A DNA stretch of 64,000 nucleotides. It comes from Cristatella mucedo (taxonomy: Eukaryota; Bryozoa; Phylactolaemata; Cristatellidae). Location of the stretch: positions 1,138,501-1,202,500 of the forward strand of contig WPIO01000076.1 in NCBI GenBank assembly GCA_009760855.2. Reading direction: 5' to 3'. Below the pieces are notes generated by a model. It worked only from the letters and a program-made list of their open reading frames with translations. It searched no databases and was not told the DNA's origin. The position numbers and the translations under genes were made by a program. This document shows positions 147 through 64,000 of this stretch, one piece after another. Position 1 is the stretch's first letter; each line of letters starts with the position of its first letter.

Positions 147-18794
<18,648 letters not shown>

Positions 18795-28381: not shown

Positions 28382-34343
<5,962 letters not shown>

Positions 34344-34373
34344 TTTGGTTCGAAACCGACGAGGCGGCTAAGG

Positions 34374-47330: not shown

Positions 47331-50300
47331 GTGAGTTAACATTTTGGCGATTTCATTCACTTTGTCCGCAGTCACTTGTGCCCCATGTGCTTCGTACGAG
47401 GGATCCCAAGATCCTAATCGCGTCTGGCTTGGTCTAGCGGTTAAGGTGCTCGCCCCGACCAAGGTCTGACTGAGGTCGTGGGCTCGAGCTCCGAGGCACA
47501 CGTGAAGCGCCCGAATAGAGATTACGTTCTCTTGGGGCGCTATACAAATGAATCATATTTATTATATCTAATCGCATGTAATCATGCTTGAGCTGCTTGA
47601 GCTAACGGTGCTCGTGCTAAAGAGGAAGCAAAACCGGCCACATTTTGAGCCTGCTGCTGGTGGGGCAACTAGAGAGGATATCGCGATTCCAATGAATTCA
47701 TTAAAGTCCCGTGGGTGTGTGTGCGTCCGCGCGCGCGTAAATGAGAGAGCAAGTCAGAGTTCCTGTCCTGGTCTACGACTTTGACTGGCAGATGAAATAA
47801 TTCTGCGTGCTGCACCTCCGCTTGATATAGGTTGCACGCAAATTGCCCTTTCTAGATTTTCTGGGCCATTTCAATCGGTCAGAGCCCCATCGCTTAGGTT
47901 GCCAAGAGGTCGAAGGCTGTAAATACAAGTATAAATTTAGCTGCGCCAGCTGTCAGAAGACGGACCTGTAGCTACAGCGCCCCCACCGGAGCCCCGGCGA
48001 TACGCTAGAGGAAAGGAAGAGAATGATGTGCTCGGTCGACGTTGGGCAGCCGTTGAGACCACAAACTCATCGAGGTGAGGTTAAAGGTCTCACCACTCAC
48101 TACTGCCGTGACTAACGTACTAGTTATGGGCAAACCAAGTGTGATTCAGAAATTGAAAAGGCTAACGCTTAAAATCGACTGCCAGCATCTCCTGTTGAAT
48201 CTGCACGAAATCTAGGTTCATGTTCCAAAATGACCTTTCGTTAGACGACCACATTAGCTCCATAATCAAGTCTGCCTACTTTCAGCTACATAACATTGCA
48301 AAAAGTCGGGTTTGTTTCGACAGGGTACCACATCTAAATTGATCTATGCATTTGTGCATTTATGACATCCTGTCTTGACTTCTGTAACTCAACTGTTTGC
48401 TGGTCGACTGGTCTGTGCAATCAGGTGCTTACAGCTGGTGCGAAACTCTGCAGCCAGGCTTTTCTGTCGTGAGCGTTGCAGTTGCCACATCGCACCACTT
48501 CTCGCCGACTTGCACTGGTTACCAGTCAAGCAGCGCATCGACTTCAAGCTTTTGTCACTCACTTTTAGGTCCCTTCATTCTTTGGCTCGAGCCTACCTAT
48601 CAGATCCACTCCCCTAACCAGGCCAAGCATCGTACCACAAGCTTTTCGGCATCTAACTGTTTACCTATACCTCGTACAAACCCTTAAATCCTTTGGAGAC
48701 CGTGTCTTTAGTACGTAAGCTATCAAGGCCTGGAACTCACTCCCGACTTGCATCACGACATCCCCTGACTTGACCATATTTAAAAAAGAAATTTAAAATG
48801 CACCTATTTATCGCAGCATTTAGTGGGTCTGTGATTCGACCTTTATGTGCTTATTTGTGCTGACACTGTGCATGCTGCCACTAACCTCACTTGAATACTG
48901 ACCCTGTGCATGTCACACCTAACCATATTATCCATGTTGTTTATCAAGCAAGCATGATACCACTCACCATTCGACCGTGTTTCCTTCACAGCAAATGTAA
49001 AGTGCCTAGAAAGAGATTGAGCTCACCGAGGGTGCTTTATCACGTGTATCATTATTATTGGATATTATTATTATTTAACATCTCAGTCGGAAGGCAGGCA
49101 AGAGAGATCCAGTACTGTGCCCTGGTTCATCTTACCTGCCGACAGATGGCCTTCCGTTTTAGTCATTTGCCAGATTTGCCTCTACTGCGCATTCACTTTT
49201 GCCACAAGCCTGAAGGCTTCGCATTTCACACTCGTTCCATTTTTGCTGAGGCGCCGCTCTAGTCTTTGACTCTTCGAGCACGTCTTGCTCGAATGAATGG
49301 CTTGCTCATCTGAACGATGAACGGCAACTACTGGGTTGGCACTCGGCCTGCAGCCGCTGGCACGGGGAGGCAGATTATGCTTAAAGCCTGTGTGAGTTGT
49401 GCGAGTCACATCTGTCTGTCTGCAACAGTTGGCTTGTCACATCTGTCCAGCATCACCTGCTTTCTCTCACTGGCACTGTGTTTATGTCTCGAAGTTACTG
49501 CATTTCATTGGGCATTCAAGTAGCATTGTTTTTTGCCTGATGCGACTGTATTTGCCATGTTCTGCTCTGCTCAGCTTTATATGGATCCCAGTGAACCTGT
49601 CTTTTTTTCTGGTGTGCTTTGCCTGCTTACCTGCCGTGCATGATTCATCGAATGTTACTAACTAGTGGTCTTATTAATCAGCGACCCCCGAATGCCTTCC
49701 TGTGTGCTTCTGCATGCTTGTCTGAATGTGATGCATTGCCTGTCATTAACTCTTAGTTAATGCTTCTCTTGCAGGGAGTTGTAAAGCCCTTGTTAGAAAT
49801 TTTTACTTTGATTAGGGTGCTGTACAAAAGTCATTATTATTTATTATTATTATGAATGCAGTTTCTGTTCCATGCTTGGCAGCAGTCAATGTCACAGATC
49901 ATTATATCAGTAGTACTTTTTATACAATTCTATTTATAACTGAATGGTGGTGCTGCTATTACTTGCCTGGTGTCCTTGCTGAATGATAACAGGAGGCTAC
50001 GTTTTTAAGCTATCGCCGATGTGCTTATCAAATGTTTTCTTATGGTGTTCTTAAAGGTGATCAATGGTGTTCTTTTCAAGTCTAATATCCAAAATTCCTT
50101 TTACTTTGGCAGTGCTAGTGGTCAGTCTTTCGGTACTAATAGTCTGCATAGCTCGTTTGCTTGTGTTGTTGTTCGGTCAATTCCCCTTATACTGAGCAGG
50201 GAGAATGTTGGTCTAGACAAGGAGCAAAGCCACGGCTGTAGGCCCTATGGCTTTGATAAAAGCCACTTTCTTCTAATTCAGATCTAAAGAGATGAAAGAA

Positions 50301-53300
50301 ACCCACGCCTCCCATAAATACTTTGATTCCTTATATTCGATTCACTGATGGTGGATTTTGCACACAATGGTTGAGAGCCAGGCATCTGTGAAAGCCTTGA
50401 CAGTCGTCTCCAACAAATTTGGTCGGTGTGGATGGGATGCAAACACAAGCAGATGCTGTTCTGCTCTGTTCGTGCCACTGTCTTCTTGCTGGCTTTGCTA
50501 ATCACGATGTATGCAGGTTTACTATTCTTGTATCCCTGTTGCTCAATTAGATCCTTTGCAGTGCTTGGTGTCCGGGCCACCTACAACTGCTCCTCCTGCA
50601 AGCCACAAACTTCTCCTGCAAGCCTTGATCTCATCTATAGCTGAGCTTTTGGGCATCTCTTTACAAATGGATTGCAAATAAAGGCCTTTTGAGCGGGGAC
50701 TGTGATATTGTTTCTTGGCTATGGCATGAGCAAAGTGTGGCACTGGGGAGAAGCTGAGACGTTTGCATTTGCTGCTTCGGCTTCCGGTGCCGGATTCAAT
50801 AGCGTACTTCAGTAGCCTGCAGGGAGACGGCTGCTATACAATGGCACTAAGAAGCGCTCGATTGGTTCAGCTCTATTCATGTGCGGTCAAACTCAGCTCA
50901 AGGAGCAGTGCGCTGTCTGCAATGCTGATGGGTCATGATGGCCAATTTAATCAGCGATTCGGTATATGTGATTGGTCTGCAAATTCAGCTCCATCTAGCT
51001 TTTTTCGCCTCATCTTTGTTGTCTTGCTTTGATTTACTGCCATTACTATTATGCTGGTTTTCGCCCTTCGTCGCATCGTCTTATGGCACATACGACCTCA
51101 CCTTTGTCGAGCCTGTATGAGCACAGAATGGGTGGCCAGATGGTGCTGCTGCTTACTGAGCTATTTTAATCTCTCTTGACCGTGGCATTGTCAAACGTGT
51201 AGTGTAGCATCTGCCCTGTGTCAATTGAGATCGATTGAGGTTGCCCTACATCAAACCTAGATATGTGGTTAAGCCCGGCTGAAAGATGGCTTGCTTAACC
51301 TGCTGTGGCTTCCTCTTCCTCATCCATCTGATGCTCGACCAGATGGTCACCGACGTGCACTGTCGATAGTCGGGAAAGTCAAGAGTTCATGGTTAAGTTG
51401 AGCTCCGAGGTCCCAAAGTAAATTTGGGACAAACAGAAGGACTAGCACTAATATAGCGTGTTTTCGAGGAGCTGCCCTGCAAAGAAAACTGCTGGCAGAG
51501 TGACTTCGGCCTTACGGATCTGTTCGTTGTCCAGTGCCTGAGGGCCTGCTGCTTTTATAAGTCAATGAGCCATGACTGGGAATGGCCACAGACCTTGGCC
51601 ACGTCTGAGTGAGCATGGCTTTGACACTAGCTCATTATATAATTGATGGCATCTCATTTATCTACTCTTGGCTGCTGTCATAATGTATAACTAATTTTTT
51701 TATTTGCATTCGTCAGCTCAGACTGCTGTACTTGGTAAACAGTGCATTCCTGGCTGTGATGCACTCCACTGGACTTCGTAATTGATAGCTCTGCTGCTGC
51801 TTTTCGTTGTGCTTGAAAAGCATGTCTTCTTCTGGGAGCAGTTCCTGAAAGCAAACACACTGTTTGCTTGTCAGCTGCAATCGCACCAACTCTGATAGGC
51901 ATATTCGCGAGCCATGCAGCATCCGTTGTATCTTAACTGAGTCAGCAGTTGTTTCGGCTATCACGTGGTACGTGGCATGGGTGCTGACTCCCCCCCCCCC
52001 CACTCATCTGCCTAATGAAGGCAGCATAGATAGATGGTAGTGATAGATTGCCGGGGTGGGAGGAACCTTGTCGGATAATGTGACCTCTCAGAATCCCGGA
52101 CGCTATTGTGGAGACAGCAAGTAATAACCACTGGCTAGGGTGTGTGGCCTGAAGTCAGCACTGCATCTGACGTGTAGCCTACTTACGTGGCAGTTTTGAC
52201 AAATGGCAGACCCTGCTCTGTCCTGCACCACAGCTGAAGCATCATCAGCAGTCACAGTCTAATGGGTCTTACCTTAACCGTTGGTTGATCCAATGCATGT
52301 GGCAATCCCTCATCGGTCACTGCTGTGCCTGTCGCCATGCTGGAATGAGTCCCTGACGGGTTCGTTCGTGGTAGTGGCCTCGGTATCGGTGAAGGCACTG
52401 TCATACGGCCGAGTTGGCAGAGGCTGTGCCACGCGTTGCAGAGGCCACTTGCCACTAGGCAATACTGACAATCTGGGTTTGGCAGCAACACCGGAAAGCG
52501 ATGGCTGCCTTTGTCCTATGTGGCAATCTGCCTGGCAGGATGCTGCTGCATCACCCCTCCCCCCTTGAGCTGCAGGCCGTGGAGGCTGACAGAAACCCTG
52601 ACCTCTGGTGCCTTCCCAAGTGTTTATCAGCAGGGATGGCTGTGCACCACCGTTGCCAAGCTAGATGAGCTGTTTTTCTGCTATCATGGACAAGTATAGC
52701 AAAATCTATCTGAATAAATCTATCCGAAATAAAAAATAATGTACTGTAATGATGTAAAAGCAGAGCTGAACTCGCATTTCAAATTTCACTCCGATACGTT
52801 AAGTATTGGCCGAATTACGGAATTTACAAGGTGCAAAGCTACACTTAAGAGGAAGCTTTTTAAAAGGCACAAGTATGCACCTCAGTATGCACCTTAGTGA
52901 TAGCATGCTCAGTAAACAACATGGATAACATGGTTAGGTGTGACACGCACAGGGTCAGCATTCAAGTGTGGTTAGTGGCAGCATGCACAGTGTCAGCACA
53001 CATAAGCACATAAAGGTCGAATCACAGACCCACTAAATGCTGCGATAAATAGGTGCATTTTAAATTTCTTTTTTAAATATGGTCAAGTCAGGGGATGTCG
53101 TGACGCAAGTCGGAGTGAGTTCCAGGCTTTGGAAGCATAAGAACTAAAGGGACTGTCTCCAAAGGATTTGAGGGTTTGTACAAGGTATAGGTAAACAGTT
53201 AGATGCCGAAAAGCTTGTGGTACGATACTTGGCCTGGTTGGGGAGTAGATCTGATAGGTAGGCTCGAGCCAAAGAATGAAGGAACCTAAAAGTGAGCGAC

Positions 53301-56300
53301 AAAACCTTGAAGACAATGGATTGCTTGACTGGTAACCAGTGCAGGTCGGCGAGAAGTGGTGTGATGTGGCAACTGCGACACTCACTGCAGACAAGCCTGG
53401 CTGCAGAGTTTCGCACCAGCTGTAAGTGCCTGATTGCACAGGCCGGTAGACCAGCAAGCAATGAATTACAGACGTCAAGACGGGATGCCGCAAAGGCATG
53501 GACCAACATAGATGTGGTATCCTTGTCTAGTCAAGCCCGAATTTTAGGAATGCTATGTAGCTGAAAGTAGGCAGACTTGATTGTGGAGCTGATGTGGTCG
53601 TCTAACGAAAGGTCAGCTTGGAACATGACACCTAGTTTTCGTGATCATTTTTCTTCCACGTAAAAGTCGTCAGAGAGTTTCCTATCCCATTTATTTTCTT
53701 GACTTTCACCGTAGGAATGGAACAGATAATTTATTGTCCGTAGAGGATCTGAGGGCACGAGGAGGCTGAAACTAATGCATCAGTTCAGCTACGTATGCTA
53801 GCGCCAAGCCATGGCGAGTCTTTTGGGGGTCAGCTTAAGAACTTTACTCTGTAAAATCCGTCGATCAACCGGAAGCCATCGAAGCTCCTTCGGCAAAGGA
53901 GACGCACGTGGTCAAACCTCTGGGATTTGTCAACCAGCCTTGCAGCCACATTTGTCGCCAGCTGAAGTGGCTTTTTCGGTAGCTCAGCCAAAACAGAGTT
54001 TTGCAATAGCCTAGCCAGGATAGAGCCAGGGCACTAGTTAAATTGTTTGCAAGCCACCTCGGTAGACAGCCCCTAATCTTAGATTGGGATCTGACGTGAT
54101 GGTTCTCTGTGCAGGCAGTCTTCTTAATGAAGCTTGCAACCTTTTTGGCAGCCCTGTGGCAGTCTGCACTCGCCACCAGCTGCCCATGTATGTATGTATG
54201 TGCCTGTTTGTAGATCAAAGCAGACCTCGAGGCAGAGCTGCACCTATCCAAGTCGGTCCTCGGCCTCCTGGACACGGCCATGCTGCTGCCGTATGCACTC
54301 GTCCAGCTCGTGGCCAGTAATCTCGGTGACAGCTTTGGACCACGCCGTACCATGGCCGTTTGCTTGTGCCTGTCGGCCGTATCCATGGTGAGTGCCGGTG
54401 ATGCCCCCTGCACCGACGGTGGTCTATCACTGAAATATTATTTTCGTCTTGACTCGGCTAGGCTTATTAATCTTTAATTTAATTTATTTATTTATAATTA
54501 ATTTATTAATTTTTACTTTTTAATTTTTGCATTTAGTGGCCAGGCTTCGTTCTTTTCTTCAGCCTGTCTCCAAGTCTAGCTGGCTTGCTTGCTCACTAAG
54601 AGGCCGTCGTGGAAGCTGTGAACAACATAACGTGCTGTCATAACAGCAGCAGCAGCAGTTTCATAGCAGCATCATTGCAGCAGCAGCAGTTTCTTCTTTG
54701 CTCTGGTTTCACAATTACGTTTGCACCTTGTGATGACGCGGTTGCTCGGTACCCAAATCTGTGGCATTTTGGCCTAGTGCACCTGAGATATAGAAGTGAC
54801 ATTAGTGTTAACTTAAGGTCAGGTGATTTAGCAGCCTCATTTATATAGTGACTGAAGAGCCTTAGTGGCTATCACCTCCCCCACTTACAGTGCAGCTAAT
54901 ACGTTGTTTAGCACAGAAGAGTAAACTGTGAAAAGTTCTGGTGTGAGCACAGTGCCCACAGGATAAAGTTCAACATGGTAGCCAGTGGCTGTAAACCGAA
55001 AGCTCTAAACCTTAATAATTAAAACCCTAAACCCGACACGCCTAAAAAAACATGCAAACCCTAAATCTCAATAGCTAAATATGCAAACCCTAAATCTCAA
55101 AATGCGTGGTGTGGCCATGGAGTTAATGTGTTCGCCTTAAACGACCAAAGTCAGAGTTAATGCGTTTGATGACCGAGGTCATGGGCTCGAGCTCTGCTGC
55201 TTAAGAGCCTGGAAAGAGATTAAGTTTTCTTAGCACACTATGCAAATGAATAATAGTTATCTTTTATGGGCATAGTGGCATTAGCAGGATCTTGGTCATT
55301 CATAGACATACTTCGACGTATTAGTTGTGAAGTGGGTAATAAAGGATTGCCTGCTGTGGGATTTGAACCCACGTCCAGAAAATGTAAAGTGCCAAGGAAG
55401 AGATTGAGTTCGCTGAGGGCATTATAACAAACGCATTTGCCAATGCAAGCGGTGGTGTTAGCCGTAAAGGCTCTCCTTTCACTATACAAAAAGAGGCTGT
55501 TAAATCAGCTGGTATTTGTTTTGGTGAGCCGTGATGGCTCAGTAGGTGAGGCGGTTGCTTTGCACGACCTCGATCCCGAGGTCGTGGGTTCGAATCCTGT
55601 GGTGGGCGATCCTTTATTGCTGCTGCAAGCGCTGATGATAGCCGTAAAGGCTCTTCTGTCGCTTTATAAAAAGAGGATCTTAAGTCGGCTAGGATTTTTT
55701 TGTAACAAACAAATGTATTATTATTGTTATGTGCTTGGCTGTGAAGCGCAAGCAGCTTGTGCCTGGACCAAAACTTGTGGGGGCATTGTAAATGTCTGCT
55801 GAATTCAACCGCTCCATTTGTGCTGTGGCAGACGAGCACTCATATCACTCCACCTGCACCACGTAATTGGTGTGATAGCCACTAAGGTTCGTCTGCCGTG
55901 ATATAAATAAGGATGTTGAATCAGCTAACCGGTACTTGAAGTTAAAAAAGAGGCAGTACAGTCGTCCCTCCCCACTTTGAGTTTCGACTTTTGCAGCTTC
56001 ACTCTTGTTGCGGCTTTTCCAATATACATGTTTTCATTAAAAAGTTGATCGAGATAGTGAAAATGATATAGCTCGCTCGGTTGTCTGAGTCAGCTATATG
56101 ACCATGTATTACAATTAAAATTAAAATTACTGTACGTATGGACTGTAGGCCCATGTATTCGAGCACCCATGCAAATCCTTCCAACGCTAGGTACAGCTAG
56201 CTGCTCGACCACTCCTTGAGTGTGGGCAAGAATTTCTTTCCGAAAAATCATGTGTATATTTTCATAGGTTAGTGATTATGTGTAAGAACTGTGTGTGTGT

Positions 56301-58037: not shown

Positions 58038-58500
58038 TATATATTTACTATAAACTGCACATTCACTATTATATAATAATTTATGCTAGTACTTGATACA
58101 TTTATACTTATACCCACACTGTACACAAGACCAAAATGAGTTGGCAGGGTACTTTGCTGATGCAAATAGAAGCATATAAAAGCAAACTCAACTATCACTC
58201 CTCCAGCTGAAGCAGCAGAAAGCAGGAATGTAAAATACAAAACGGTATACAGGACAGCTGAGGCTGATAAAAAATAAGTCCTTCGAATGTTCTGACAGGG
58301 ACAACTAACTACCTTGCAGCTTTGTCTAAATGCATATGTGGGCATGCACGACTTCCTTTAGGTTAAAGCCTACTGCCTCTCAATGCAATGTCAAAGAAAT
58401 GGGTCATGGTCCCACTTTTGAAGACTCTTCTTTGGAGGTTGACCAAAGAGCTGGGAGCAACAGTGCTTCACGAAGGAGCACTAATCGAAAGACACTAGAC

Positions 58501-58696
58501 CAGCGGCTCTCAACCTGTGGGTCGCGACCCCTTTGGGGGTCGAACGACCCTTTCACAGGGGTCGCCTAAGACCATCGGAAAACACGCATTTCCACATTTT
58601 GGACACAATAATTTAATGGTTGGCGGTCGCCACTTTATGAGGAATTGTATCAAGGGGTTAGAAACTTGAAAGGGTTGGAAAGGTTGAGAACCACTG
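58501..58696 (+). mobile_element. SPIN-like hAT MITE (Space Invaders family), 196 bp
   Basis: Left terminus CAGCGGCTCTCAACCTGTGG, followed by GTCGCGACCCCTTTGGGGGT, then CGAACGACCCTTTCACAGG and GTCGCCTAAGACCATCGGAA. The right terminus is AGGTTGAGAACCACTG, the inverted partner. An 8-bp duplication flanks it: CACTAGAC (58493-58500) and CACTAGAT (58697-58704), one mismatch. The sequence agrees with the SPIN consensus as I recall it, a hAT family found in tetrapods, a triatomine bug and the pond snail Lymnaea. Non-autonomous, with no transposase. Confidence 0.85.
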
Positions 58697-58743
58697 CACT
58701 AGATGGTGTACAAAAATGTCAAGGCAGTCTAGTCGGTCTGCAG

Positions 58744-63260: not shown

Positions 63261-63639
63261 TGTCAATTAGCCTCTCACTGTGACCTTTTTCATGCATATG
63301 GCTTTTTGAATCCCGGGAGAGCAGGATTTTTGTGTGTTGATGCCACGCGATCATCGGGCGATTCAACTTGGCCATCACTGCTACTCAGTCACTTATCTAC
63401 GGAATAGGAAGATGAGGAATGTGTGAAAAGCAGCAGGCTGCAAGACAGTGGCTCCTAGTGTGGCTCGATACTAATCTTGATCCACTCCGTGAAGCAGGAC
63501 CGCTCTTGCTAGCGATGCTAGCTAGCTGTACAGGTTCAGGTGATCGACTGGATTTGCAATGCGAACTCTTGGCTGCAATGATGGCAGCGCTGAAAATATC
63601 ACTGCACATGTCAACCAGCTCATTGGATAATGAATGTTT

Positions 63640-64000
63640 CAAGACGGCTATCCTAGACAAGACGGCTATCCTAGGCAAGACGGCTATCCTAGGCAAGACG
63701 GCTATCCTAGGCAAGACGGCTATCCTAGGCAAGACGGCTATCCTAGGCAAGACGGCTATCCTAGACAAACCGGCTATCCTAGGCAAGACGGCTATCCTAG
63801 ACAAACCGGCTATCCTAGGCAAGACGGCTATCCTAGACAAACCGGCTATCCTAGACAAGCCGGCTATCCTAGGCAAGACGGCTATCCTAGACAAACCGGC
63901 TATCCTAGGCAAGACGGCTATCCTAGACAAGACGGCTATCCTAGGCAAGACGGCTATCCTAGACAAGACGGCTATCCTAGACAAGACGGCTATCCTAGGC
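63640..64000. repeat. 18-bp minisatellite, about 20 units, continuing past the window
   Basis: Unit CAAGACGGCTATCCTAGR, with variant CAAACCGGCTATCCTAGR and one CAAGCCGG. Each G-ending unit has a CCTAGG palindrome. As 18 is a multiple of 3, the minus strand is an open frame of RIAVLP/S hexapeptides reaching into unique sequence (to 63,397). I do not consider it a proven gene. Confidence 0.97.

Follow-up and report, generated by a model that had tools for sequence, protein, structure and literature searches.

SPIN is a well-known transposon that crosses between phyla, and the snail Lymnaea is one of its carriers. Additional hosts whose copies are dated help to infer who the donors and vectors were and when the wave took place, a full-length relic most of all. 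SPIN is described from mammals, with transfers into mammals 15-46 million years ago (PMC5857283), and from squamates (PMC11008031). A study of Rhodnius prolixus names two elements, SPIN_NA_12_RP and SPIN_NA_13_RP, and reads them as transfer from vertebrates (PMC11614815). For Biomphalaria glabrata, a hAT of about 1,000 copies with significant identity to SPIN has been described, in a study that detected no intact transposases of DNA transposons (PMC5440852). SPIN in an invertebrate is already known; the present host may be new as a carrier.

The window, by which we mean the whole 64-kb stretch of DNA that was analysed, holds one copy of the hAT family treated here. Its features are as follows.

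58501..58696, plus strand: putative non-autonomous SPIN element (hAT, Buster-type), 196 bp, from the sequence and the family consensus.
58493..58500, no strand: left copy of the target-site duplication, CACTAGAC, of the nnnTAnnn type, from the sequence and the statistics of 41 copies.
58697..58704, no strand: right copy of the target-site duplication, CACTAGAT, mismatched to the left copy at 1 of 8 positions, from the sequence.
58501..58516, plus strand: left terminal inverted repeat, CAGCGGCTCTCAACCT, from the sequence and an inverted-repeat search.
58681..58696, minus strand: right terminal inverted repeat, reading CAGTGGTTCTCAACCT on the minus strand, from the sequence and an inverted-repeat search.
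58501..58593, plus strand: 5' arm, 90% identical to bases 1-93 of a 3,110-bp full-length copy (blastn).
58594..58606, plus strand: 13-bp stretch at the junction of the internal deletion in the 187-bp form, from comparison with the full-length copy.
58607..58696, plus strand: 3' arm, the consensus counterpart of which is bases 3031-3110 of the full-length copy (86%), from the family consensus.

The initial annotation had described a 196-bp element with 16-bp hAT ends and a near-perfect 8-bp duplication, and this proved correct to the base. Short terminal inverted repeats starting with CAG, a hAT trait, are present at 16 bp in both the window copy and the consensus. The two repeats of the window copy agree at 14 of 16 positions and form the longest inverted repeat found by the search tool (22 nt, 82%), which extends into the duplication; the duplication itself contains the palindromic CTAG. 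Aligned with the 187-bp consensus built from its own genome, the window copy is equal at 171 of 187 columns (87% in blastn, with gaps counted). The 13 bp at the junction correspond to consensus positions 94-106 and gave no blastn match to the full-length copy. No second copy of the family was found within the 64-kb window, where all other blastn matches to the consensus (E<=1) were 18 bases or shorter.

Elsewhere in the window, a zinc-finger exon at 30978-31331 (minus strand) matches the YY1 structure 1ubd at E 7.5e-45, ranking below three ZNF568 chains. The frame upstream of it (33723-34367, minus strand) has no Pfam hit and presumably resembles the N-terminus of YY1. Copies of interspersed repeats lie at 7800-8820, 12980-14020, 16190-17680, 48110-49060 and 52890-53640; we take them to resemble LINE 3' ends, and the three frames tried in them gave no Pfam hit. 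A long CA/TG microsatellite (15800-16150) adjoins one of these repeats, and an array of an 18-bp tandem repeat (63550-63999) reaches the end of the window.

Across the assembly (572 Mb in 688 contigs), the 31-base head CAGYGGYTCTCAACCTGTGGGTCGCGACCCC matched 573 + 586 = 1,159 times with up to 3 mismatches, and its reversed control 0 + 0 times. Querying the assembly with the window copy returned 2,141 candidates; 40 of these were scored, each matching at E 1.8e-53 or better. We sampled 48 loci, made up of the 8 best matches to the window copy and 40 loci with the exact head pattern, from which a script recovered 41 complete elements and a further 7 that lack a recognisable right end; one locus (L064) holds two elements, and the head pattern failed to pick up another (L006). 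Lengths fall at 176-196 bp for 39 of the complete copies and at 137 and 158 bp for the other two, and the majority consensus, which is the family's main form, is 187 bp long. The mean K2P distance to this consensus, calculated with the outermost bases of the element excluded (31 at the head, 15 at the tail), is 0.100 (median 0.093), or 0.089 when CpG sites are removed, figures biased downward by the picking of copies for an intact 31-base head or for likeness to the window copy. At assumed neutral rates of 1-5 per billion years, a divergence of 0.089 would mean a burst roughly 18-89 million years ago.

The flanks of the 41 copies carry the trace of insertion. The two flanking 8-mers are identical in 10 copies, differ once in 15 and twice in 4, and differ at 3-7 positions in the other 12. 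Flanks with at most two mismatches thus occur in 29 of 41 copies, against a mean of 5.0 and a maximum of 12 among shuffled pairs (1,000 shuffles). Of the 82 flanks, 72 have T at position 4 and 73 have A at position 5; C at position 3 and G at position 6 occur in 51 and 50. The two copies of the window element's duplication agree at 7 of 8 positions. We take the nnnTAnnn target pattern to mark the Buster group of hAT elements.

Longer members of the family were reached with two strings, of 29 and 39 bases and not drawn from a database, that we take to be non-coding interior (the longer one 3' interior) of vertebrate SPIN. The 29-base string was found at 14 places and the 39-base string at 34, in each case with 1 exact match and none for the reversed control. 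Among the 14 places of the shorter string, all of which were inspected, ten are complete by the script's rule and measure 311-608 bp. In one place (L094) the script chose the wrong left end, and an insertion is present; in another (L104) it took a false tail, and the next tail gives an element of about 640 bp; a third (L105) measures about 919 bp. The right end was unrecognised in the sequence examined at L093 and L102, as was the head at L102. One locus (L101), extended with the next piece, yielded an element of 3,110 bp (C133:3519332-3522441) with ATCTAAAT on both sides, a perfect duplication. Its transposase frame is broken: one open piece runs for 192 aa, and others lie in different frames. 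Bases 1-93 (91%) and 3031-3110 (86%) of this copy account for the 187-bp consensus, with 13 bp between them. Both ends are common to the full-length form, the intermediate lengths (311 to about 640 bp) and the 187-bp form, most of them with 8-bp nnnTAnnn duplications. A search of the genome for full-length SPIN with transposase, which the initial annotation had proposed, yielded this relic: the full-length partner with a hAT transposase, a further hAT trait, is present in broken form.

The genome also contains other hAT elements. A 2.7-kb hAT (L090, C645:1540700-1544700) with a 563-aa open frame has CAGGGGTGTCCAA ends and GCATACAG on both sides, which is an 8-bp TA-centred duplication; its frame matches PF05699 over the cut-off and PF14291 under the cut-off. 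About 60 of 138 PF05699 matches score alike, and six that were translated are nearly the same protein. Loci L009-L038 belong to a young, unrelated hAT family that expanded recently, its frames reaching about 640 aa. As an autonomous partner for the short elements the young PF05699 hAT was rejected, no SPIN-like 15-base end (<=2 mismatches) lying within 1.5 kb of the domain in 30 loci. The DUF4371 loci were likewise rejected: none of the 6 examined out of 46 places has a SPIN end pair, and at up to 3 mismatches 4 of the 6 show scattered or single end matches (two at L086, one each at L088, L090 and L091), the one at L090 being that element's own different end.

The transposase of the 3,110-bp relic is itself recognisably of hAT type. 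In tblastn, the 563-aa protein of L090 matched the relic over two stretches at E 7.8e-13 and a weak third at E 0.003, and a 187-aa piece of the relic matched the L090 protein at E 1e-6. Pfam searches with the 187-, 144- and 65-aa relic pieces gave no family over its cut-off, and a PDB search with the 187-aa piece gave no chain at E 1. In the genome, the 187-aa piece has 13 matches: itself, six at 45-81% and six distant ones at 27-40%. The six closer matches represent four loci, on C676, C111, C658 and C332, and all carry stops except a 54-residue match on C658. An intact SPIN transposase was not found in this one genome search, made with the 187-aa N-terminal piece only. Since the close transposase relatives are interrupted or short, the SPIN family here has most likely stopped moving.

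Identity as SPIN was judged from rodent stretches printed in papers and from the two interior strings, not from a Repbase or Dfam consensus. The rodent stretches, from mouse Adh5, mouse Ate1 and a rat primer, we take to be SPIN; this label is ours, and the source papers do not name SPIN. Mouse Adh5 DNA printed in PMC8376875 matches the 3' end of the consensus at 67 of 80 columns, and, when the 15-mer used as the search word is removed, at 52 of 64 columns (81%) with a score of 37.5, against scores of at most 16 in 5,000 shuffles. Mouse Ate1 screening primers in PMC2767504 fall on the SPIN 5' end. One of them was a search query; the second, which was not, matches at 18 of 20 bases, with both differences in one CpG. 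Shuffles of this 20-base primer have a mean of 11.0 and also reach 18, in at least 1 of 5,000, so that the primer alone is weak evidence. A rat primer in PMC5739704 matches at 20 of 22 bases, with the differences at CpG sites and 16 of the bases serving as the search term. Given the rodent stretches and the interior strings, the sequences argue strongly for membership in SPIN. The initial annotation had named SPIN from the left half of one copy, and the copy number, the longer members with SPIN interiors, the relic and the printed rodent copy now lend that proposal support.

The lineages of rodents and of this animal have been separate for over half a billion years, a span after which unconstrained DNA is saturated. 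The non-coding stretches of the family are too close to rodent SPIN for common descent, which would make horizontal acquisition the best explanation. We therefore read the window element as probably a SPIN copy that has decayed and lost its interior (MITE-type), in a lineage that would have received SPIN horizontally, and assign this reading a probability of about 0.9. Arrival by transfer had been suggested initially, and it gains support from a non-coding likeness to rodent SPIN beyond the vertical expectation. After such an entry, and following established hAT biology, full-length copies would have made SPIN transposase that bound the element ends in trans, and this transposase would have excised the short elements and inserted them into TA-centred targets. 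One deletion derivative may then have multiplied beyond its parent, the head matches now exceeding 1,100.

Sequences outside animals were also scanned. Exact searches with a 33-base head, a 28-base tail and a 24-base head found no match in the viral contigs scanned, and the 33-base head and 28-base tail found none in prokaryote genome contigs. The 187-bp consensus had no match at E 1e-3 among plasmids and phages, and a piece of the transposase gave one pattern match in viral contigs, which is no relative.

Three other explanations were weighed. One is an old hAT family passed down vertically from the ancestor that protostomes and vertebrates share, its ends kept for transposase binding. The ends of a hAT are indeed under selection while the element is active, and sampled copies about 9-10% from their consensus imply a burst that was not very recent; yet the likeness to rodent SPIN in the Adh5 DNA extends past the ends, with 52 of 64 columns matching once the final 15 bases are set aside, and the exact 29- and 39-base interior strings, if they are indeed SPIN, are non-coding. 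Vertical inheritance is accordingly improbable. A shade less probable still is a Buster-type hAT family other than SPIN, with similar ends, that would be merely SPIN-like: at least one further hAT in this genome (L090) does carry an 8-bp TA-centred duplication, but its ends differ from the SPIN-like ends, and the interior strings and subterminal sequence of the present family match rodent SPIN. Contamination of the assembly with vertebrate DNA, which the initial annotation had named as a danger to its proposal, can be dismissed as a negligible prospect, no sign of it having been seen on examination: the window's contig is 2.0 Mb long, the roughly 100 listed among the 1,159 head matches spread over many contigs, C111 (24.8 Mb) among them, 29 of the 41 complete copies sit in differing flanks, each with a duplication of its own, COX1 of the mitochondrial contig has an open frame under the invertebrate code, and pieces of the mitochondrial contig have 96-99.7% copies in the nuclear contig C166.

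The mitochondrial contig (C688) is 21,008 bp long and has genes on both strands. Its gene order was read by eye, COX1 alone being called by Pfam search. One strand carries COX3-ATP6-COX1-ND3 and ND1-ND6-CYTB-ND4L-ND4-ND5, the latter block being presumably of lophotrochozoan type, and the other carries COX2 and both rRNAs, recognised by motifs. ND2 and ATP8 were not located on C688 in the by-eye reading. Stretches about 2.1 kb apart are repeated on this contig, one of them containing part of ND3. Its order does not fit the two lottiid limpet orders given in PMC7648102. Searches for molluscan hemocyanin gave no match, and neither did their controls; those for hemerythrin gave no match, with controls matching in 7 of 14.

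The window copy departs from the family in its right half. It differs from the consensus at 1 of 72 positions in columns 32-103, versus 16 of 69 in columns 104-172, a contrast (Fisher 4e-5) that is the smallest in probability among the 41 copies. Its 3' arm is 9 bases longer than the consensus and more divergent, and a comparison with the full-length copy at E 1e-3 gave nothing for this arm. The greater difference of the right interior, remarked on from the outset, is thus real for this copy. The arm matches 22 other sites in the genome. One of these, C4:977473 (79%), covers a comparable 95 bases and, when fetched and aligned, carries the same longer variant arm; the remaining 21 cover 75-86 bases at 72-76%. 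A copy on C671, outside the 22 matches, was also fetched and has a different arm. Among the 41 copies, 8 variable sites have a second state in at least 7 copies (at most 11), and 3 of the 8 are CpG; we take the 41 copies to show no clear subfamily structure. The right-arm type of the window copy is a small variant, not a major subfamily, so that the suggestion of a distinct subfamily keeps slight support from the variant arm common to C4:977473 and finds none in the structure of the 41 copies.

A further reading is that SPIN entered one more invertebrate group independently, in a host lineage without reported SPIN and with a full-length relic surviving; we give it somewhat less than even odds. 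If true, the relic could help to place the donor and to date the wave.

Compared with known systems, the L090-type hAT of the same genome resembles the SPIN family here in its hAT transposase and its 8-bp TA-centred duplication, and differs in its termini (CAGGGGTGTCCAA) and its 563-aa open frame. By description, the SPIN-like hAT of Biomphalaria glabrata has a similar copy number, and no intact transposase was found there either (PMC5440852). SPIN_NA_12_RP and SPIN_NA_13_RP of Rhodnius prolixus, also compared by description, are likewise SPIN in a protostome, though in another host (PMC11614815). The rodent SPIN copies printed in PMC8376875, PMC2767504 and PMC5739704, the Adh5 one being a decayed mouse copy, have ends and subterminal sequence like those of the family here. 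Unlike rodent SPIN, the dominant form here is a 187-bp deletion product with a 13-bp junction of its own, residing in an invertebrate host.
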